From: Limosilactobacillus reuteri
Lineage (GTDB): Bacteria; Bacillota; Bacilli; Lactobacillales; Lactobacillaceae
Direction of reading: 5' to 3'
DNA: 64,000 nucleotides
Assembly: GCF_020784725.1 (NCBI RefSeq)
Contig: NZ_JAJGTZ010000040.1
Coordinates: 1-64,000, forward strand
Shown: one piece after another, positions 12,424 through 22,915 of the stretch
How the letters are laid out: each line of letters starts with the position of its first letter
Numbering within the stretch: position 1 is the first letter of the stretch
The notes under the pieces: generated by a model
Told to the model about the DNA's origin: nothing
Databases searched by the model: none
Seen by the model: only the letters and a program-made list of their open reading frames with translations
Translations under genes and position numbers: made by a program

Positions 12424-15400
12424 TTATTTATCAGCTTTGCGTTTCTTATCGTGACCCACGAAACCGAAGAGACTTGCAAAAGCAGCAAGACTCAAGCCAG
12501 CTAATGCACTGAACTCAGAAGAATTATTACCAGTTTGTGGCAATGCCTTTGCTGGTTGCTGGCTATCAGTATTGTTTGCGCTATTTTGTGATTGACCAGT
12601 TACATTTTCAATTACTGAACCAGCATTAGTAGAGGTAGTATTAATTGCATTGGTATTATTGGTTGCATTGCCGTTCTGGTGACTAGGTGTACTATTACCG
12701 CCATTTGTGTTGCCACTGTTTTCTGGGATTACAGCATTAACATGAATAGTAACAGTTACGTCATAGGTAGTTCCGTCTGGGAAGTGGACTTCAACTACAC
12801 CAGTATGGTCACCAGGTGTTGAAACATCAGGCTCTTGCTTCCAAGTGTAAGTTGTACCATTTGGCATCTGATCTTTGTTCTTAATTGCATCTGCAGGGTT
12901 AGGAAGTTTGCCTTGATCAGTTGTAATATCTTTGCCTTCAGGTGCAGGAACATTCACAGTTACTGTAACTGTATCTTTGGAACCGTCTGGATAAGTTACT
13001 GTAATTGTTTCAGTATGCGAACCTGGCGTCTTAACATCTTGTGAGACTTGATCTGGGTTTGTCCAAGTATACTTGGTGCCATCGGGGAGATCAGCCTTGT
13101 TCTTAATACCGTCTGCTGGATTAGGAACCTTACCTTCCGGAGTAGTAATTGGTTGCGTTTCTGGCGTGTACTTGTTGGCATCCGTTGCTGGGTTCGTTAC
13201 GTGGATGGTTACGGGTACTTCATCCTTCGAGCCGTCTGGGTAGGTTACAACGATAACTGCTGGCTTGTCACCTGGAGTTGTTGTATCAGGAGTGTCCTTC
13301 CAAGTGTACTTAGCCCCATCTGGTAAGTCACTCTTGTTCTTGATACCATCTGCAGGGTTTGGAGTTTCACCCTTCTTGACAGTAACAGTCTGTGGCTCTG
13401 GATTGTACTTATCAGCATCAGTCATAGTTCCTGGTTGAGTTCCGGAATTCTTAACTGTAATAACGACTGGCACCTTATCTTCGGAACCGTCTGGATAGGT
13501 CACAACAACTACTGCTGGTTGAACGCCAACCTTATTAGTATTAGGGGTAGTTTCCCAAGTGTACTTGGTGCCGCCTGGTAATTGATCCTTGTTGGTGATT
13601 GCAGTAGCAGGATCTGGAACCTTAGCGCCCTTGTCAACAGTAATATTCCGGCCTTGTGGAGTGTACTTGTCAGCATCAGTTTGAGTAATACTTTGCTTCT
13701 GGTAGCTTACGGTTACATTCTTACCATTTTGTGGAGTCCCATCTTTTTCTACAACATCAACAGCCGGAACTTCAGTAGCCTTTGTACCATCAACATATGA
13801 GTCATAGCCGTCAATTTGGGTAACACCAGTTGATGGGAATTGAGCATCCCCATTCTTAACATGCCATGGGTTCCAAGTAATGTCACCAGTTACTGGATCT
13901 TGGTAGCCAGCCACACCATCGTTATCTCGAATATACTCAATCGTTTGTGTTACGGGTGTAATCATTGAATGACCTGTTGGCACTTCATAATTAATGGTTC
14001 GGGTTACAGACATATTCATATCCTTATTAGAAGGATTATATGGTACTGGCGTTGAACCTTCTCTGACATAAGTGATGGTGTCAGTAATGTTTTTGGAAGT
14101 AGCAGTTACATCAACAGCTGGAATTTGGTTGGCAGTGTTCTTTTCACCATTTACATAAGTATCGTATCCTTTTTGTGTGGTAATAGTGTAAGCAGGAATC
14201 ATGTAGGTTGATTGACCATCTTTATCAACCGAACCCTCTGGACCTTGCCATGCATTCCAAGCAATAACACCAGTTACTAAGTCTTTAATACCTGTCCGTT
14301 GGAATGGAACAGTAATGCTTCTTACTGTTGTAGCTTTATTCTGTCCAACTAGAACTTCTTGGATAGTTTGAGTAATCGTACGGTAAGTATTCTTGTTGTT
14401 CTTATCAACAGGAACGACTGCTGTTCCATGTTCAACTTTGTAGTCTACGGGTTGTGGATCATTTGCACCAAACGTATAAGATCCGAGAACTTGTTGATTT
14501 GGAACTAATTGCCAGTTAGCTGGAACATTCCCAGGTACATTAACGCTAACTTTTTCACCAGTCTTACCAGGAACCTTGTAAGTACCTATTACAGCACCAC
14601 TACCATCAACATAATTGATTACTAGCGTGTGTGCATTAGCAGTGTAAGTTACATCAACTACTTCATTTTGAGAATCTGGAGTGATGGTGGCGGAAGCTGG
14701 AACGTATTCCTTGCCATCAACAGTTTGAATAGTTGCTCCAGTGGCAGTTGCAGTGTAGCCTGGCTTAGTTATGTTGAATTGTGGGAAGTTCGTTACTGCT
14801 TGCCCGTCACTATTTTTAGCAGCAACCCAGTCAGTATAAGATACTTGTTGATCTGCTGGCTTAGAAAAATCAGTTATTTTAGCACGACTGTAGATAACAT
14901 GTTGAATGTATGGCTTGTCTTCACCTTGAACATTGATTGTCCGAGTAATGTCACGGTAAATTTCGGAATTAGTCTTGTTATCAACACCTTGGTCAACTTT
15001 AATCACATTTACAGCTACTGGAACATCAAGATAACTGCCATCAGTAAAGTTAATTCTTACTGTTGCCGGAGCCTTAGCATTTGCTTCTTCAAGTGATGGT
15101 AATTTTTGCCAAGCAACTGAACTAATTTCAGCATTATGAGCAGCAGTTAAATCACTAGTATTTACAAGCTTTGAAGCATCCCCTAAAGCTGCCTTCAAAT
15201 CAGTTGTATCTGAGTTAACTGATGGAATAGTGCCATTAGCCTCAGCACCATAAATATAAACAAATGGGAATGGGTGAATAGCGCTTGGTCCCTTGCCAAA
15301 GATTGGCCAATCTACTTTAGAAGTATCAACAGTTGCTGAATACATCGGATAAATATATTGATTGCCTTGCGTATTAGTGTCACCAGTATAAGTAATTGTC

Positions 15401-18400
15401 TCAGTACCATTATTAGCAGCAGAAGCTAAACTTGATGGTTGACCTTGACCAGTTACTCCCGGAATACCAAATTCTGTACCTGCTGGAGTCCAAATAGCTG
15501 AAATTTCACTCACTGGGATACTTTGCGGAATATTTCCAGTATAATCAGCGGGCAGATCACCTATTTGAGTAAGTTCATATGCACCCTTCTTTGTGTTTAA
15601 AGTGTAAATGTATGGCTTACTATAATTTTGACCATCTTCGTAGTAGCTCAACTTAAAGTTTTCAATTACTGGTTCGCCAATAATATTTGCGTTTGAAGTC
15701 TTGTGCGTTACGACATTATTAGCATAAAGACTAAAGACATGACCATTATCGATGATAACAACATCCCCACCACCATTTACAGCAACAGGAATAGTAACAG
15801 TTTCAGTCGTACCATCCGGATAAGTTACTTTAGCAACACCAGTAGTCGCACCTGGCTTAGAAGTATCTGGGGCAGTCGTCCAAGTTGCGCTAGATGGATA
15901 ACCATCAACTGGAGTAGAACCACCATTATCTAAGTTAGCAATTCCTTCGGCCGCAGCTGGCGTGCCATTAACGGTGGTTGTAATTGGTTTAACTTCAGGA
16001 TTTGCGTCAACAATTATATTAGTTGGTACATTAGTCTTAGAACCATCGGGGTAAGTGACGACAACTACTGCTGGCTTCTTACCTGGTTCATTGTTATTTG
16101 GAGTATTTTGCCAAGTGTAAGTTGTATCCTTTGGCAATTGATCTTTATTCCCAATTCCATCTGGAGCACTAGGAGTTTCACCTTGTTTAATAATGATAGT
16201 TTGCCCTTTTGGTGCGTATTTGTCAGCATCAGTAGTTACTTTAAGCGAACTTGCTGGAATATTAACGTTCAAGTAGGTTGGTTCACCATTTGCCGCCTTG
16301 TCGGTAAAGGTAATTTTAATAACACCGTCTTGACCTTGTTCATTCGGCTTAGTTGCCCAAGTAGTAGATGCAATCTCCTCGCTTGGAATATTGTTATCAA
16401 CTAATTGGCTAAATTGCTCAGCCGTCAAATCAGATTGATATTGAATGTTTACTGGAACCGTAACATTCTTAGCACCGGCACCTTTAGCAAGAATCGTAAA
16501 TGGCTTAGTAGTTACAACATCATTCTTTGCACCCAAGATATTCTTAGCTGCGTCATTATTAGCAAAGTCAACATTAATGCTAGTTGTAATACCTTTACCA
16601 CTAGCGGTAGCTGTTTCCACATTAGTATCTGGAGCAGTTGTCCAACTGACAGTTGACGGATCAATCGTAATTGCAGTTGGAGTAGTTGAAAGCTTGCCAT
16701 CTGTTAACTCGTAGCCTTCCGCGCTTATGACACCAGCGGCAGAAAGAACTTGTGAATTTTCAGTAGTTTCGTGCGCATTAAGCTTAGAGGTATCAACTGT
16801 CGTGACAATTGCACCATTATCACCCCAAGTTACTGTTTGGCCAGCCTTAGTAACAATTACTGGAACAGTCGTCTCGTTAGTACTCGTATCTGGGTAAGTT
16901 ACTGTCACAGGGATGTTGTAAGCACCTGGAGTTACAGTATTTTCTGGTTTAACAGTTACAGTACCAGTTGATGGATCAATAGTTGCCCAGCCTGGTGTAT
17001 CAGTACCTGTAGTAAATGTCGTTCCAGTTGGAGCAGTAGTATCTTTACCATCTTGATCCGTAAATGCTGGATCATCAGTCGCAGTTTTACCTTGTTCAAC
17101 AGTTACTGGTTTATATGATGGTGTATATTGATTATTTTCTTCTAAACTTGAACCAAATTTAACACCTGAAGTATTCCACCAACTAAAGTGATTAATAAAA
17201 TCATTCAAGGCTTTTGAGGCTTTAGTTTCATTTCCCTCAGGTACAACCGCGCCGTTAGAGAAGCTATTTGAACCTGGATCAGAAGCATTCGGTGTTAATA
17301 CAACTTCATTAACACCTTTAGCTGGAGTATCATCATTGACCGATCCATTCATATATTCAGAGCCTTCATTATTCCAGTCGCCAAAGTCACGATATGAACG
17401 AAAGGCATAAGCGTAGTCTCCACCCTGACTAGTATTATTTAAGTATTTAATATTCCAAGTTACTGGCTCAGTTTCACCAGCAGGAATTATAGTTAATGGA
17501 GTATTATACGTACTATTAGCTGAGTTGATTACAATGTGGGTTTGGTGAGAAGCAACATCTCCTGCACCTTCAGTTTTAATTAAATATCCTGGTTTATTAG
17601 GTGTAGTACGTTGCAAATTAATTAATTTTGCATTATCGAAATTAAGGTAGTCCTGACTGCTTGTTCCCCACATAGTTAAAATAGCTGGCCAACCATTACT
17701 ATAATCTCCCTTAGACAATGTATAGGAAGATGGAAGATAAGATGAGTAAGCGGAATCTTGTAAATTCAAGCTACCGCCATTTACTTCAAGGTGATAAATC
17801 TCACCATCCCCACTGCTTGGCCCCATTGCAAGCAAAGGTGCATCAGAATCACTCACATTAGTTCGAATGACCGAGAGCAAGGCATTGGGACTAATTCTGA
17901 CGGTACTATCATTTGTATCGCCATCATAATCCAAGCCAACTACACCAGCAGAACGAAAGCCAGTTGTATTCATTTTGCTAGTGGTAATTTTTAACGACGA
18001 ATTATCTTGGAGGTCAAGATTACTTGCATTGTTAACTCCCATCGAAGCTCCCAAGCCTAATTCCATTGTTACTTGGGCATTAGGCATCAAACGCAATACG
18101 CCCGAAGTTGCATTATCAATTGTTTGATTGCCAGCGCCACCATCAGCAAATGAAATACCTGCCATATTTGAAGTAGCTTCACTGTTAAAATCAACTTGAG
18201 CACTACCATCTACCACAACATTACCCGAGGCCTCAATATCTGCTAAGTCACTTGAACTATTATTATTTGCCGTAAATACGGTCGACCCATTACTAAAGTT
18301 AACATTATTTGCTTGAATTAAAGCTGAACTAGTAATATTTGAATTATTTAGACTGCCTTGTAATTTATTCTGTCCCTCAAAATTAACATTGACATTAGGA

Positions 18401-19218
18401 TATGAGGAAGTTGTTGAATTATTAAGCAATTGACCTGAATCTTTACTGGTCGTAACTCCATTAAAGGTCAATGTACTATCGTTAGAAGTAGCGCTGTTAA
18501 ACCAAAATGGACCATATCCGCTAGTTGTTTGAAGATTTAAATCCTTTAAAACGACATTCCAATTACGGGTAGGATTACTTGCATTTGGTTCATAGTAAGT
18601 ATTACTGTCAAGATCAATGTAGTTATTCCCCATATTTAAAGCATATTGATTTTGCCCATCAATTGTTACTGTACGAGCAATCCCATAGTTGTTTATGTCC
18701 TGATAGTTATCATTATTTAAATTAGCATTACTGAAATCAATATTTTGATTTAACTTAATTGTGCTTACATTGGCACTCTGTAATGCATTCAAGAATTGCG
18801 AATAATCACTAACTGATTGTACTCCGTTAGTTTGCACAGCCATTGTAGTTGTATTTTGCGCACTTTCATTTTGACCAGTTTCCTGATTGGTTGCCAAGTT
18901 TTGCTTACCAGTATCATTTGGCATCACATTATTTGTACTGTCATTAGTAACTGGGTTAGCTTTAGTGGGCAAGTTAGATAGATTAGTTTGCTCATTATTC
19001 AGAACCGTTGAATCTGGATTGATATTTGTTTGAATCGCTTCTTGATCAGCAGTATTACTATGAGTCTCTGTTGCCGCATCTGCAGAAGCGTTTATTCCCA
19101 TAAACGTAAAACCGATTAATACCGAAGCGACACCGATTGTCAGTTTCTTAATTGTAAACCGTTGTTTCTTAGGTTCTTGCTTAAAAAGTTGTTCTTTTCG
19201 ATTATTCTTTGACAACAT
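12424..19218 (-). CDS. LPQTG-anchored YSIRK surface adhesin with Rib/YPDG and MucBP-like repeats
   Basis: A complete 2,264-residue protein. Residues 1-48 form a YSIRK-type signal (RFTIKKLTIGVASVLIG). A Ser/Asn-rich region at about 130-640 resembles a beta-helix adhesin head (QFLNALQSANVSTIKLNQ). From about 700 there are Rib-like domains (VTYPDTSTNETTVPVIV), then MucBP-like repeats around 1440-1830 (HTLVINYVDGSGAVIG). Finally there are about five Rib modules of roughly 80 residues (VTYPDGSKDEVPVTIHV). The sortase signal LPQTG is at 2226-2230, followed by a hydrophobic stretch and KKRKADK. The ATG follows an excellent GGGGAGGAG ribosome site. Known Rib proteins are rod-like adhesins on the wall; the ligand here is unknown. 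It is a neighbour and distant paralog of the giant adhesin to its left. Confidence 0.95.
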   Translation of the reverse strand: MLSKNNRKEQLFKQEPKKQRFTIKKLTIGVASVLIGFTFMGINASADAATETHSNTADQEAIQTNINPDSTVLNNEQTNLSNLPTKANPVTNDSTNNVMPNDTGKQNLATNQETGQNESAQNTTTMAVQTNGVQSVSDYSQFLNALQSANVSTIKLNQNIDFSNANLNNDNYQDINNYGIARTVTIDGQNQYALNMGNNYIDLDSNTYYEPNASNPTRNWNVVLKDLNLQTTSGYGPFWFNSATSNDSTLTFNGVTTSKDSGQLLNNSTTSSYPNVNVNFEGQNKLQGSLNNSNITSSALIQANNVNFSNGSTVFTANNNSSSDLADIEASGNVVVDGSAQVDFNSEATSNMAGISFADGGAGNQTIDNATSGVLRLMPNAQVTMELGLGASMGVNNASNLDLQDNSSLKITTSKMNTTGFRSAGVVGLDYDGDTNDSTVRISPNALLSVIRTNVSDSDAPLLAMGPSSGDGEIYHLEVNGGSLNLQDSAYSSYLPSSYTLSKGDYSNGWPAILTMWGTSSQDYLNFDNAKLINLQRTTPNKPGYLIKTEGAGDVASHQTHIVINSANSTYNTPLTIIPAGETEPVTWNIKYLNNTSQGGDYAYAFRSYRDFGDWNNEGSEYMNGSVNDDTPAKGVNEVVLTPNASDPGSNSFSNGAVVPEGNETKASKALNDFINHFSWWNTSGVKFGSSLEENNQYTPSYKPVTVEQGKTATDDPAFTDQDGKDTTAPTGTTFTTGTDTPGWATIDPSTGTVTVKPENTVTPGAYNIPVTVTYPDTSTNETTVPVIVTKAGQTVTWGDNGAIVTTVDTSKLNAHETTENSQVLSAAGVISAEGYELTDGKLSTTPTAITIDPSTVSWTTAPDTNVETATASGKGITTSINVDFANNDAAKNILGAKNDVVTTKPFTILAKGAGAKNVTVPVNIQYQSDLTAEQFSQLVDNNIPSEEIASTTWATKPNEQGQDGVIKITFTDKAANGEPTYLNVNIPASSLKVTTDADKYAPKGQTIIIKQGETPSAPDGIGNKDQLPKDTTYTWQNTPNNNEPGKKPAVVVVTYPDGSKTNVPTNIIVDANPEVKPITTTVNGTPAAAEGIANLDNGGSTPVDGYPSSATWTTAPDTSKPGATTGVAKVTYPDGTTETVTIPVAVNGGGDVVIIDNGHVFSLYANNVVTHKTSNANIIGEPVIENFKLSYYEDGQNYSKPYIYTLNTKKGAYELTQIGDLPADYTGNIPQSIPVSEISAIWTPAGTEFGIPGVTGQGQPSSLASAANNGTETITYTGDTNTQGNQYIYPMYSATVDTSKVDWPIFGKGPSAIHPFPFVYIYGAEANGTIPSVNSDTTDLKAALGDASKLVNTSDLTAAHNAEISSVAWQKLPSLEEANAKAPATVRINFTDGSYLDVPVAVNVIKVDQGVDNKTNSEIYRDITRTINVQGEDKPYIQHVIYSRAKITDFSKPADQQVSYTDWVAAKNSDGQAVTNFPQFNITKPGYTATATGATIQTVDGKEYVPASATITPDSQNEVVDVTYTANAHTLVINYVDGSGAVIGTYKVPGKTGEKVSVNVPGNVPANWQLVPNQQVLGSYTFGANDPQPVDYKVEHGTAVVPVDKNNKNTYRTITQTIQEVLVGQNKATTVRSITVPFQRTGIKDLVTGVIAWNAWQGPEGSVDKDGQSTYMIPAYTITTQKGYDTYVNGEKNTANQIPAVDVTATSKNITDTITYVREGSTPVPYNPSNKDMNMSVTRTINYEVPTGHSMITPVTQTIEYIRDNDGVAGYQDPVTGDITWNPWHVKNGDAQFPSTGVTQIDGYDSYVDGTKATEVPAVDVVEKDGTPQNGKNVTVSYQKQSITQTDADKYTPQGRNITVDKGAKVPDPATAITNKDQLPGGTKYTWETTPNTNKVGVQPAVVVVTYPDGSEDKVPVVITVKNSGTQPGTMTDADKYNPEPQTVTVKKGETPNPADGIKNKSDLPDGAKYTWKDTPDTTTPGDKPAVIVVTYPDGSKDEVPVTIHVTNPATDANKYTPETQPITTPEGKVPNPADGIKNKADLPDGTKYTWTNPDQVSQDVKTPGSHTETITVTYPDGSKDTVTVTVNVPAPEGKDITTDQGKLPNPADAIKNKDQMPNGTTYTWKQEPDVSTPGDHTGVVEVHFPDGTTYDVTVTIHVNAVIPENSGNTNGGNSTPSHQNGNATNNTNAINTTSTNAGSVIENVTGQSQNSANNTDSQQPAKALPQTGNNSSEFSALAGLSLAAFASLFGFVGHDKKRKADK

Positions 19219-19849: not shown

Positions 19850-19892
19850 GTTAAACAAAAAGCGTGACTAAGTATCTCACTTAGTCACGCTT
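19850..19892 (-). terminator. Terminator of the flavin operon
   Basis: A perfect 14-bp stem (AAGCGTGACTAAGT at 19860-19873 with its complement at 19879-19892), a 5-base loop and TTTTGTTT on the minus strand. It lies 15 bases past the apbE-like stop. Confidence 0.9.
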
Positions 19893-19907: not shown

Positions 19908-20834
19908 TTATTCAAAACCAACATTTACCATTGATTCATCATTATGAATAAAGATAGCGCCACGGTTGCCAGGACGTGCTTCCCAGTCCGCGAGTGGTTC
20001 GCCATTAAAGAAAAGTCGCTTAGCCTCAATTTCACCCATTACCGATTGATTAGTAAAAACAGTCACGCTGCTCAAATCAGTCTCTAACGGGTATCCTGTT
20101 CGTGGATCTAGTAAATGGTGATAACGACGACCATTTTTGATCAAAAATCGTTCATAAATCCCAGATGTAACGGCCGAACAAGCAGGCTCGCGAACAGTTG
20201 CCAGATTTTCACCACGATGTAATTGCGGATCCTGCACACCGATGATCCACTGTCCATCATCCCGCCGTGGCGACTTACCAACAAATAAGAGGTTTCCCCC
20301 TAAGTCGATAATTCCCGCGGGAACTCCAGCTTCAATCCAAAGATCACGAATACGATCCGCAATATAGCCCTTCGCAATTCCGCCAAGGTCTAATTCCATC
20401 CCCGGCTCTTCTAAATATACCGTCCGTGCGTCTCGGTTCAGCAATACTTTATAAGGGTCGATCAACTTTAACCGCTCTTTGATCTCAGCATCACTTGGCA
20501 CGTGTGCTCCTGCAAAACCAATTTTCCATAATTTTACTAACGGGCCAATCAAAGCGTTAAAGCCAAAGTTTTCCCGACTATATTTCACTGCCAGCTCAAT
20601 GAGGTCAAAAGTAGTTGGCGATACCATTTTCGGAGTTTTCCCCGCACCATGATTTACCGACATTACTTCTGATTCATTACGGTTAACCGTTAATTGGTCC
20701 TCATAGCGGTCAATTAGGTCCATGGATTTCTTTAACAATGAAAAATATTTATTGCCAAAAATCGTTAAATTTATGCGAGTTCCGAGAGCGTGATGAGTCA
20801 TCACATGCCGCTGCGCCATCAATTCATTATTCAT
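19908..20834 (-). CDS. apbE: FAD:protein FMN transferase (ApbE family), no signal peptide
   Basis: 308 residues, normal for ApbE. Family hallmarks are visible: ALGTRINLTIFG near the N-terminus, ELDLGGIAKGYIADRI, GIIDLGGNLLFVG, AVTSGIYERF and HHLLDPRTGYPLE. ApbE enzymes move FMN from FAD onto a Thr/Ser in Dxx(S/T)GA(S/T) motifs of redox proteins. Most are exported lipoproteins; this one begins MNNELMAQRH with no hydrophobic segment, so it should act in the cytosol. It starts 2 bases after the preceding stop with no clear ribosome site of its own, so translation is probably coupled. The upstream protein carries four copies of the acceptor motif, making it the obvious substrate (inference). Confidence 0.93.
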   Translation of the reverse strand: MNNELMAQRHVMTHHALGTRINLTIFGNKYFSLLKKSMDLIDRYEDQLTVNRNESEVMSVNHGAGKTPKMVSPTTFDLIELAVKYSRENFGFNALIGPLVKLWKIGFAGAHVPSDAEIKERLKLIDPYKVLLNRDARTVYLEEPGMELDLGGIAKGYIADRIRDLWIEAGVPAGIIDLGGNLLFVGKSPRRDDGQWIIGVQDPQLHRGENLATVREPACSAVTSGIYERFLIKNGRRYHHLLDPRTGYPLETDLSSVTVFTNQSVMGEIEAKRLFFNGEPLADWEARPGNRGAIFIHNDESMVNVGFE

Positions 20835-20836
20835 AA

Positions 20837-22087
20837 CTAGTTTTCGGATGCACCTGTTGTAGCATCTGCCTCATCATCATTTGCGTCTACGCTGCCTGCA
20901 TCGGATGCGCCAGTTGTAGCGTCCGCATCAGTATCATCGTTTGCTGCTGGTGCTGGGGTCGCAACCACTTCACTATCATTGTCAGTGTTATCATCATCGC
21001 TTGATTCTGAAGCACCAGTTGATGCATCAACACTGTCAGCTTCTTCACTGTTATCATTAGCCTCTTCATGCTTAGATGCACCAGTGTTACCATCAGTACT
21101 CCATGCACCATTTTCAAAGAGGTTAAGAATATATTCCACATTACCAGTAAATTCAATGGTTCCAAGGTAATGACCATTAACATCACGTAAAGCGTAGTAT
21201 TGGATCAATGAACGGTGACCATTCATCCATAATGGACGAGTAACAACGTCTTTTTCACCATCTCGGAAACTGTTAATAATCTTCATAACAGCCGGAACAG
21301 CTAACGGTGGATGACATTCTTGAACAGTTTCCCCAAGAGAAGCTACATTCCGAACATGTTCCCGATTTGGCTTGTCAGAGAACCATGCGAAATGGTCAGT
21401 ACTGTCGATTAAGTCAATTTCAAATGGGATTGTACTGAAGATTTGTTGAACTTCTTTTAATGTCAACCGACCAGTAGGGAAGTTAATATAAGCTTCACTG
21501 ATCGTTGGTTGTTTAATGGACATATCCAGTCCCTCCTTATTTACATTTTCAAAGATTTGAATGTATTCCACAAAATGAGTAAAGCAGTTTTCAAGGTTAT
21601 CACGTGCTTCCGCATTAATTAATCGACCATCTTTCGAGAAGGAATGACTAGCATTACCAATCAAAACTTCATTACCTGGCAACAAGTTAGCATCACAATC
21701 AGGAGAAACCAAAATCTGACGCATTTGAACTTGAGATCTTGCAGAAGCTTGGCGTCCATAGGATACACCGACAACCATAACCGGCTTGTGCTTTAACACA
21801 TCGGTCTTGTAAGAAAGCCATTCAACCGTACTCTTTAAGGCAGCAGGAATACCATGATCATATTCAGGAGTAGAGAAGATAACTCCATCAGCAGCTTTAA
21901 CCTTTTGCTTTAACTTCCATACCTCTGTTTGTTCAGAAAGAGGGGTATCAACGCTAAATGGTGGCAATTGGCTAATTTCAGCGATCTCAATATCAGCCAT
22001 TTGACGGAAGTGCTTTTTCATGTATTTAAGCAAAATCCGATTATATGAAAAATTGGCATTAGTTCCGACTAAAGCAAGGATTTTCAT
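20837..22087 (-). CDS. NAD(P)H:FMN reductase fused to PAS_10-like domain and putative multi-flavinylated tail
   Basis: 416 residues in three parts. Residues 1-188 are an NADPH-dependent FMN reductase (flavodoxin-like fold): GTNANFSYNR, STPEYDHGIPAALKSTVEWL, ARSQVQMRQILVSP. Residues about 200-322 resemble the PAS_10 domain found at the C-terminus of DUF438 proteins (ECHPPLAVPAVMKII, YYALRDVNGHYLGTIE). Residues about 328-416 are an Asp/Ala/Ser/Thr-rich tail with four Dxx(T)GAS motifs at 332-338 (DGNTGAS), 354-360 (DASTGAS), 389-395 and 408-414 (both DATTGAS). That pattern is the ApbE acceptor signature and the next gene is ApbE. No signal peptide is present. The ATG overlaps the previous stop (TAATG). 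Inferred role: a cytosolic flavoprotein that passes electrons from NAD(P)H to covalently bound FMN; electron acceptor unknown. Confidence 0.88.
   Translation of the reverse strand: MKILALVGTNANFSYNRILLKYMKKHFRQMADIEIAEISQLPPFSVDTPLSEQTEVWKLKQKVKAADGVIFSTPEYDHGIPAALKSTVEWLSYKTDVLKHKPVMVVGVSYGRQASARSQVQMRQILVSPDCDANLLPGNEVLIGNASHSFSKDGRLINAEARDNLENCFTHFVEYIQIFENVNKEGLDMSIKQPTISEAYINFPTGRLTLKEVQQIFSTIPFEIDLIDSTDHFAWFSDKPNREHVRNVASLGETVQECHPPLAVPAVMKIINSFRDGEKDVVTRPLWMNGHRSLIQYYALRDVNGHYLGTIEFTGNVEYILNLFENGAWSTDGNTGASKHEEANDNSEEADSVDASTGASESSDDDNTDNDSEVVATPAPAANDDTDADATTGASDAGSVDANDDEADATTGASEN
20846..21094 (-). other. Four candidate flavinylation sites (Dxx(T)GAS) in the protein tail
   Basis: The codons lie at 21094-21074, 21028-21008, 20923-20903 and 20866-20846. 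All four fit D-x-x-(S/T)-G-A-(S/T), with Ser at the acceptor position. The spacing is irregular (22, 35 and 19 residues), unlike a simple tandem repeat, yet the seven-residue core is kept each time. Confidence 0.7.
21521..21539 (-). promoter_or_regulatory. Internal ribosome site and ATG within the fusion gene
   Basis: On the minus strand ATAAGGAGGG ends 8-9 bases before an in-frame ATG (21523), which is residue 189 (MSIKQPTISEAY). This is stronger than the signals of most genes in the operon. It falls exactly at the junction between the reductase and the PAS-tail half and could produce a separate protein of 228 residues. Confidence 0.7.
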
Positions 22088-22659
22088 TACTTGTTCGCCT
22101 CCTTCTTTTCAGCAACCATACGATTGATTGCCTTGGCGTAACGTTTGAATTCGCGCATACATTTTTCTAAGAAATGAATAGTCGTTTCATTAGCAATGTC
22201 ACCATCTTTATCAATGATATGAGCAGCATCACTCATAAAGAACTCTTCGTTTTGGAAAATATAAGCATTAACACCTGGCGAGATCAAAATATCTCGTAAT
22301 TGAACTTGGGAACGAGATGAGCCTTGGTCATGGGTAGAAGCCCCGATGATCATGACCGGCTTATTTTCTAATGGGTGAACTTCATAGGAAAGCCATTCAA
22401 TTACACTCTTTAAAGCAGAGGTAACAGAGTGGTTGTATTCGGGGCTAGCAATAATAACAGCATCGGCGCTTGAAACACGACGATCAATATCAGCAACAAC
22501 CTCAGGAATCTTTCCTTTATAATTTTCATTAAACATTGGCACTTGACGAATATCAATCACATCAATATCATCATTACTAAAATGACGGGCAATAAACTCT
22601 AATAACATCCGGTTGTATGAATGATTAGCATTTGACCCGGCAATTGCAGCAATTTTCAA
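22087..22659 (-). CDS. NAD(P)H-dependent FMN reductase
   Basis: 190 residues with the start taken at TTG 22659, giving MKIAAIAGSNANHSYNRML, which aligns with the start of the adjacent paralog (MKILALVGTNANFSYNR). AAAGGAAG lies 7 bases upstream of that TTG; starts at GTG 22668 or ATG 22698 would add 3 or 13 residues with poorer spacing. Family motifs are IASPEYNHSVTSALKSVIEWL and SSRSQVQLRDILISPG. It reduces FMN or quinone-like acceptors with NAD(P)H. It is the first gene of the flavin operon and about 40 percent alike by eye to the N-terminal half of the next gene, so the two reductases probably arose by duplication. Confidence 0.88.
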   Translation of the reverse strand: MKIAAIAGSNANHSYNRMLLEFIARHFSNDDIDVIDIRQVPMFNENYKGKIPEVVADIDRRVSSADAVIIASPEYNHSVTSALKSVIEWLSYEVHPLENKPVMIIGASTHDQGSSRSQVQLRDILISPGVNAYIFQNEEFFMSDAAHIIDKDGDIANETTIHFLEKCMREFKRYAKAINRMVAEKKEANK

Positions 22660-22915
22660 ACGTGTCACTTCCTTTAAGTTATTTATGCAACATTTCACAT
22701 TGTTATTCTACTATATTTTACTCAATCAAAAAACATATTATTAGTAATATGCACACTTAATTGACCATTTCCATAACAATTGATTATAAGCTTGGCTAAG
22801 TTAGCATTCTGAAAATTGATTACGTGTTTCTTCATCCCCCGACATATTTGTCCAGTAATATTTGGAGATGTGCTAAAATAGTCAACACATTGAATTAATA
22901 GAACGGAGAAATAAT

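Follow-up and report, generated by a model that had tools for sequence, protein, structure and literature searches.

A reductase-PAS fusion with a predicted multi-site flavinylated tail and its adjacent ApbE in Limosilactobacillus reuteri

Described systems and the layout of the locus

Two groups of described FMN reductases come close to the locus reported here. In the sections available to us, Huang 2024 (PMC11334425) describes ApbE-linked FMN_red proteins that are flavinylated on unstructured C-terminal extensions bearing 1-2 motifs; for Lactococcus lactis WP_021723379.1 and L. taiwanensis WP_205872264.1, flavinylation was followed by SDS-PAGE and required the Ser/Thr of the motif, and the modelled sites lay near conserved flavin pockets. 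Its discussion holds that ApbE flavinylation mainly prevents the loss of flavin outside the cell, and the word PAS is absent from its main text. The second group is the FRedA/FRedB pair of L. johnsonii which, in the available sections of Valladares 2015 (PMC4500961), is active only when both proteins combine into a heterodimer, which has two FMN sites (KD 1.96 uM, FMN Km 20 uM), oxidises NADH and produces H2O2, NADPH not being an effective donor. Given added FMN, the tail-less pair is catalytically active in vitro; its assembly is slowed by LjPAS, which in other lactobacilli occurs as a fusion with FMN reductase, the FRed proteins and the reductase portion of the fusion in L. plantarum being 42% identical (PMC4500961). 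Because the FRedA/B-LjPAS proteins were produced in E. coli, and the words "apbE" and "covalent" do not appear in the main text, a native flavinylated form may have gone unassayed.

Three further systems bear on the comparison, each as described in the available sections of the papers cited. The hydroxycinnamate reductase HcrA/HcrB is a heterodimer of a small FMN_red-type protein and a large partner (PMC10295242). Multi-flavinylated proteins are extracytosolic strings of folded FMN_bind domains (PMC8238504, PMC10339131), and O2 reacts with the reduced form of one multi-FMN protein (PMC10339131). Finally, a seven-residue motif suffices for ApbE and works best at a terminus, flavinylation was 10-55% lower with Ser than with Thr as acceptor, and a cytosolic ApbE is on record in a Klebsiella case (PMC12052999).

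The window analysed here (64,000 nucleotides, positions 1 to 64,000 of contig NZ_JAJGTZ010000040.1) contains three minus-strand genes lying end to end, which we call FR1, FRP and apbE:

22087..22659, minus strand: FR1, small FMN_red partner upstream of FRP (ORF list, Pfam)
20837..22087, minus strand: FRP, fusion of FMN_red, PAS_10 and a multi-motif tail, 416 aa (ORF list, Pfam, AlphaFold)
21650..22087, minus strand: NADPH-dependent FMN reductase domain of FRP, residues 1-146 (Pfam PF03358, E 2.8e-33; Foldseek)
21140..21448, minus strand: PAS_10 domain of FRP, residues 214-316 (Pfam PF13596, E 2.4e-15; relatives 3cax, 2qkp)
20840..21097, minus strand: disordered acidic tail of FRP, residues 331-416 (pLDDT below 50 throughout)
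21074..21094, minus strand: motif 1, DGNTGAS, residues 332-338, predicted FMN acceptor Ser338
21008..21028, minus strand: motif 2, DASTGAS, residues 354-360, predicted acceptor Ser360
20903..20923, minus strand: motif 3, DATTGAS, residues 389-395, predicted acceptor Ser395
20846..20866, minus strand: motif 4, DATTGAS, residues 408-414, predicted acceptor Ser414
19908..20834, minus strand: ApbE (FAD:protein FMN transferase), 308 aa (Pfam PF02424, E 1.7e-68)
19860..19892, minus strand: terminator-like hairpin with a 15-pair stem, just 3' of apbE (hairpin scan)

FR1 has 190 aa if its start is the TTG at 22659 behind AAAGGAAG, or 203 aa from the GTG at 22698 given in the ORF list; its Pfam scan covered 22087-22665. 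The FR1 stop and the FRP start overlap by one base (TAATG), and a gap of two bases separates FRP from apbE downstream. The hairpin is the probable end of the operon, although hairpins of its kind number 3 in the region as compared to 2.7 in shuffles. A promoter scan of the region gave no more sites than shuffles, and one simple pattern for Fnr-type boxes found none upstream of three operons. Downstream of the operon and on the same strand (window 12424-19218) lies a gene for a repetitive protein of 2264 aa whose end is LPQTG-like, which we take to be a surface anchor.

The reductase part of FRP matches 1rtt (rank 1) and 3svl (ChrR) in Foldseek, and the PAS part matches the solved structures 3cax and 2qkp. 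In the AlphaFold model (built from 37 sequences drawn from the window and from named loci) pLDDT falls below 50 for residues 331-416 and for the linker 183-195, most other parts being confident, and the last 100 residues contain 28 D/E versus 1 K/R. An exported multi-flavinylated protein was rejected as a reading of FRP, since by Pfam and AlphaFold the FMN_red fold starts right at the N-terminus; "cytosolic" is used here, for FRP and ApbE alike, to mean the lack of a visible signal peptide, together with length. The earlier picture of a reductase-PAS protein with no export signal, a flexible tail of up to four predicted ApbE sites and an ApbE of its own is supported, and so is the description of that ApbE as lying two bases away and lacking a signal peptide (the signal judged by eye). 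The closest FRP among the matches listed from named genomes, at 99%, is that of Limosilactobacillus balticus.

FRP shares with the FMN_red proteins of Huang 2024 the reductase domain, the motif-bearing C-terminal extension and a co-located apbE, but it has four motifs where those have 1-2. With FRedA/B-LjPAS it shares, going by the published description rather than by sequence, an adjacent FMN_red gene pair (here FR1 and FRP) and a PAS_10 partner, which is separate in L. johnsonii and fused in FRP. HcrB, the large partner, has FAD_binding_2 and FMN_bind, where FRP has PAS and tail instead, and no FAD_binding_2 domain was found in FRP by Pfam. Like the multi-flavinylated proteins, FRP is predicted to hold several covalent FMNs in one polypeptide; its sites, unlike the folded extracytosolic FMN_bind domains of those proteins, lie in a disordered tail with no export signal. 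The first-pass annotation knew of nothing alike in the literature, a claim that does not stand: flavinylated FMN_red extensions (PMC11334425, in the sections available) and PAS-FMN reductase fusions (PMC4500961, likewise) have been described. Flavinylated FMN_red tails, FRedA/B with PAS, and cytosolic ApbE were all already known. What appears to be new from the sequences is the four-site PAS-fused form, the occurrence of the tail on different partners with up to ten sites, and its tight link to a short ApbE. Within the open-access literature, subscription papers and preprints aside, we found no paper joining FRedA/B-PAS and flavinylated FMN_red tails, and no report of flavinylated PAS proteins.

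Tail motifs and their link to ApbE

We counted a strict motif, D..[ST]GA[ST], and a general one, D..[STAG][GSAT]A[ST], which is wider than the published motif. The tail of FRP has four strict motifs, at the positions assigned to them in the first reading and in agreement with the seven-residue motif of ApbE targets. Shuffling its last 100 residues 300,000 times gave 0, 1, 2 and 3 or more motifs in 296,693, 3,294, 13 and 0 cases, and a DNA form of the motif (which omits Ser AGY at position 4) matched the genome nine times, four of them within the FRP tail, as compared to four matches for a reversed control pattern. In a set of 21 same-genus sequences that includes the window's, pairwise amino acid identity reaches 97.3% over the core columns of the motifs, with different codons in 58% of the identical pairs there, while the linkers are 44.8% identical and 13% gapped (FMN_red 84.0%, PAS 87.9%); the exceptions are motif 1, which is DATSSAS in two, and motif 3, which is DATTGVS in one and DASTGTS in another. 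On this evidence the motifs are held while the linkers drift, and the shuffles, together with conservation relative to the linkers, rule out a tail that is simply low in complexity or that repeats by chance.

A scan of named genomes, of which the best 80 loci were kept, gave 79 with an FRP by our own profile (score above 350); L150, which has no full FRP, was excluded, and the FRP of L136, split in two reading frames, was counted unmended via its C-terminal piece. Among the matches listed, FRPs range over Limosilactobacillus, other Lactobacillaceae, Enterococcus, Tetragenococcus, Oceanobacillus and Bacillus. Every one of these 79 has at least one general motif: one in 2, two in 22, three in 17, four in 35, five in 2 (one of them L117, whose count includes motifs outside the tail) and six in 1; shuffled sequences average 0.06 over their last 110 residues. 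Homologs that keep ApbE and lack the motifs, which had been named as evidence that would tell against tail modification, were thus not among them. The small FMN_red partner, present in 75 of the 79 loci, has no general motif in any of the 75. Strict motifs are fewer (none in 2, one in 14, two in 20, three in 16, four in 25, five in 2 of the same 79), several distant FRPs having motifs outside the strict consensus (DxxASAS, DxxSSAS). Another type of FRP in the same genus (G007, G008, G009, G027, G029, G030, G031) has mostly DxxASAS or DxxAGAS, and its ApbE would thus need to accept a changed motif.

An ApbE lies within the fetched stretch in 57 of the 79 FRP loci among the matches listed, and for each of the remaining 22 the genome has an ApbE match elsewhere (the whole-genome look-up covered these 22 loci, L117, which has an ApbE in its own stretch, and L150). 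The sole ApbE of G078 is split over two frames, and the only ApbEs of G056, G065 and G067 have open frames of 367-374 aa and may be exported ones. In a set of 56 genomes (genus and order) that overlaps in species with the named loci, so that the two counts are not independent, the proposed link between tail and ApbE is upheld: a short ApbE occurs in all 37 genomes that have a tailed reductase versus 2 of the 19 that lack one (Fisher p 1.7e-12 from a hand-made table, a value that overstates the case because the genomes are related). Short and exported ApbEs were told apart by open-frame length (short, ~350 aa or less), with N-termini judged by eye for 38 aligned ApbEs only. G019 and G023 (88 and 86% complete) have a short ApbE and no detected FRP.

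The ApbE of the window, the only ApbE match in its genome, has 7esa as its closest solved relative (E 8e-59) and in alignment with it retains DLG.IAKG and YHH.LDP.TGYP; no signal peptide is visible by eye at its N-terminus. Residues 267-275 are GEIEAKRLF as compared to GDGLSTATF in 7esa, so that the C-terminal Asp/Thr pair of 7esa, which we take to be Mg2+ ligands, is not found; Glu268 and Lys272 stand in its place. Among 106 aligned ApbEs (near-duplicates included), the first position of the pair is Glu in 104, Asp in 1 and Lys in 1, and the second is Lys in 54, Thr in 30, Ser in 15 and Gly in 7. Because of these replacements, the metal use of the window ApbE is uncertain, and Lys in place of Thr may point to a changed metal site; the enzyme may nevertheless be active as an ApbE.

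In Tetragenococcus halophilus DSM 20339 (L136, G066), the FRP gene is split over two reading frames, and the same genome has one ApbE match in pieces with internal stops, beside an intact longer ApbE; the FRP and ApbE genes of this strain may be decaying together.

Occurrence of the tail on other proteins

Stand-alone PAS proteins of 170-271 aa have 1-5 general motifs at the C-terminus in 18 of 20 loci picked by size or identity, then in 5 of 5 more, and an ApbE lies within the same stretch in 11 of the 20. Smaller PAS proteins of the same genus (160-192 aa, L067-L075) have 1-2 motifs in nine of nine cases; five other intact PAS proteins (L076, L077, L079-L081) have none. At L232 a single operon joins ApbE with an adjacent PAS-tail protein and a pair of small FMN_reds. 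Reductases with the tail and no PAS also occur: G007 (L057, Pfam-checked), G030 (L062, by sequence), and a 393-aa FMN_red protein (L246:51-1232, plus strand; G267:C61) that has ten general motifs in its last ~200 residues and adjoins a PAS-only gene with no motif. A 1020-aa protein of Secundilactobacillus collinoides (L117:5558-8620, plus strand) joins FMN_red, PAS_10, motifs, FMN_bind and FAD_binding_2. From these sequences the tail looks like a movable module of 1-10 sites, borne by stand-alone PAS proteins and by reductases without PAS.

Of 251 family genomes, in a table that mixes PAS kinds, 114 have both PAS and ApbE matches, 38 ApbE only, 95 neither, and 4 PAS only (G105, G127, G170, G289). 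The PAS protein inspected in each of these four has no motif; only that of G289 is near the stand-alone type, and the other three resemble kinds that are tail-less in ApbE genomes too. For hand-picked PAS matches (a pick that omitted G289) ApbE is present in 17 of 17 fused and 22 of 22 stand-alone genomes, and for PAS open frames of 160-300 aa it is present in 32 of 33 genomes among the matches listed.

Proposed role of the tail flavins

To the anatomy of FRP, the conservation of its motifs and its co-occurrence with ApbE, all established by the comparisons above, we add by analogy with FRedA/B an FR1/FRP heterodimer, NADH:FMN oxidase activity and H2O2 formation, and by analogy with the Lactococcus FMN_red proteins the flavinylation of the tail; the role of the tail FMNs is one that we infer. 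We consider it somewhat better than an even chance that fr1-frp-apbE is a PAS-fused FRedA/B-type oxidoreductase operon in which the tail FMNs act as tethered substrate and relay. Under such a scheme, the operon would encode cytosolic members of the FRedA/FRedB family of H2O2-forming NADH:FMN oxidoreductases; FR1 and the FMN_red half of FRP would form a heterodimer with two non-covalent FMN sites, and ApbE would draw on FAD to attach FMN to as many as four DxxTGAS motifs, each at its final Ser. The heterodimer would take hydride from NAD(P)H and reduce the tethered FMNs, which would take the place of free FMN as substrate and hand electrons on, either to O2 with formation of H2O2 or to another acceptor, and the PAS domain would tune the assembly or activity of FR1/FRP. 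By a crude Gaussian-chain estimate that ignores sterics and charge, the concentration of each tethered FMN close to the origin of the tail is 4-145 mM, far above the FMN Km of FRedA/B. Occupancy of the tail may be partial, because Ser acceptors are flavinylated less than Thr.

Flavinylated FMN_red proteins and the FRedA/B-PAS systems look like one family, and our reading of FRP, if true, joins two systems so far described separately. The Huang 2024 case probably belongs to the FRP family, because L. lactis plasmids pUC11A and pGdh442, the relatives through which alone it was compared by sequence, code for ApbE and FMN_red together with an FMN_red-PAS_10 protein in which DATSGAS occurs twice. 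Widespread multi-site flavinylation with no export signal would need an explanation other than preventing the loss of flavin outside the cell. It would also suggest a possible dependence of lactobacillar H2O2 production on apbE and on the supply of flavin.

Alternatively, one could envision one or two tail FMNs folding back into the FMN_red sites as a prosthetic group, with the extra motifs as spares, as is suggested for the Lactococcus FMN_red by modelled sites near the flavin pockets (PMC11334425, in the sections available). The two sites and weak FMN binding of FRedA/B (PMC4500961, likewise) would suit this, as would the two general motifs common among FRPs (22 of the 79 listed). Yet four are found in 35 of those 79, with a range of 1-6, and ten in L246; the tail of stand-alone PAS proteins belongs to a separate polypeptide; and the acceptor of motif 1 in FRP sits 22 residues past the end of the Pfam PAS match. 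We regard such docking as unlikely.

More doubtful still is a scheme in which the tail FMNs feed, instead of O2, a separate cytosolic reductase (fumarate, cinnamate or another ene-reductase, or an FMN_bind mini-protein), although the acceptor may indeed be other than O2. The L117 fusion argues for such a route, as do proteins of 804-815 aa that adjoin FRP in three Liquorilactobacillus loci (one of the three has FMN_red, FAD_binding_2 and FMN_bind by Pfam) and the window genome itself, which has one full-length FAD_binding_2 match and one FMN_bind protein. Two of the relatives scanned have FMN_red and FMN_bind by Pfam, and from this architecture we take them to be HcrB-like. HcrA and HcrB, in the available sections of PMC10295242, form a comparable pair. 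Against it, the window operon contains no reductase of this kind, and an FMN_bind match is absent from 21 of the 37 genomes with a tailed reductase.

The FMN_bind protein of the window genome (96 aa, stand-alone; L085:3722-4012, minus strand; G000:C35) has the motif DGITGAS and no visible signal peptide, and is by its sequence a likely second ApbE target in the cytosol; its neighbour gene presumably encodes a relative of endonuclease III, which it resembles by eye. As the sole reason for apbE it is unlikely, given those 21 genomes. A 129-aa Fe-S_biosyn-like protein (L084:3143-3532, minus strand; G000:C23:134145-134531), whose PF01521 match has only E 0.11, ends in DASTGAS, and its relatives have a general motif near the C-terminus in 26 of 30 picked loci in the genus and 18 of 20 in the order. 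For us this family is no more than a lead. It was rejected as proof that ApbE is specific, since no ApbE was found in three genomes with motif-bearing non-FRP proteins, G005 (L209), G015 (L190) and G017 (L193), which are 93, 75 and 66% complete; G015 also has a motif-bearing PAS protein, L071. The first-pass annotation had allowed that another clear target might explain apbE, and this is borne out in part: FMN_bind and Fe-S_biosyn-like candidates exist, and G019 and G023 retain a short ApbE, but the FMN_bind match is missing from most tailed-reductase genomes. That ApbE serves these two proteins of the window genome, each with one motif, and hardly modifies the FRP tail is very improbable, against the FRP-apbE operon position, motifs conserved under codon drift, the 37 of 37 co-occurrence, the Lactococcus flavinylation experiment (PMC11334425, in the sections available) and the three genomes with motif-bearing proteins of this kind and no ApbE found.

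Returning to the tethered-flavin reading, we offer only tentatively, and as a view that could well prove mistaken, its extension to lactic acid bacteria at large: that ApbE decorates disordered cytosolic tails with 1-10 FMNs; that the tail is a portable module on reductases, stand-alone PAS proteins and possibly Fe-S_biosyn-like proteins; that the tethered flavin pool relays electrons between proteins and sets H2O2 output; and that LjPAS-type proteins would be flavoproteins rather than mere sensors.

The apbE-FMN_red-FRP unit is also carried on plasmids (L262-L265), two in Lactococcus lactis, one in Enterococcus faecium and one in Lacticaseibacillus paracasei; in two of the four, IS transposase genes flank it on both sides, and in both L. 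lactis cases it is preceded by a gene for a regulator of the Crp/Fnr family.
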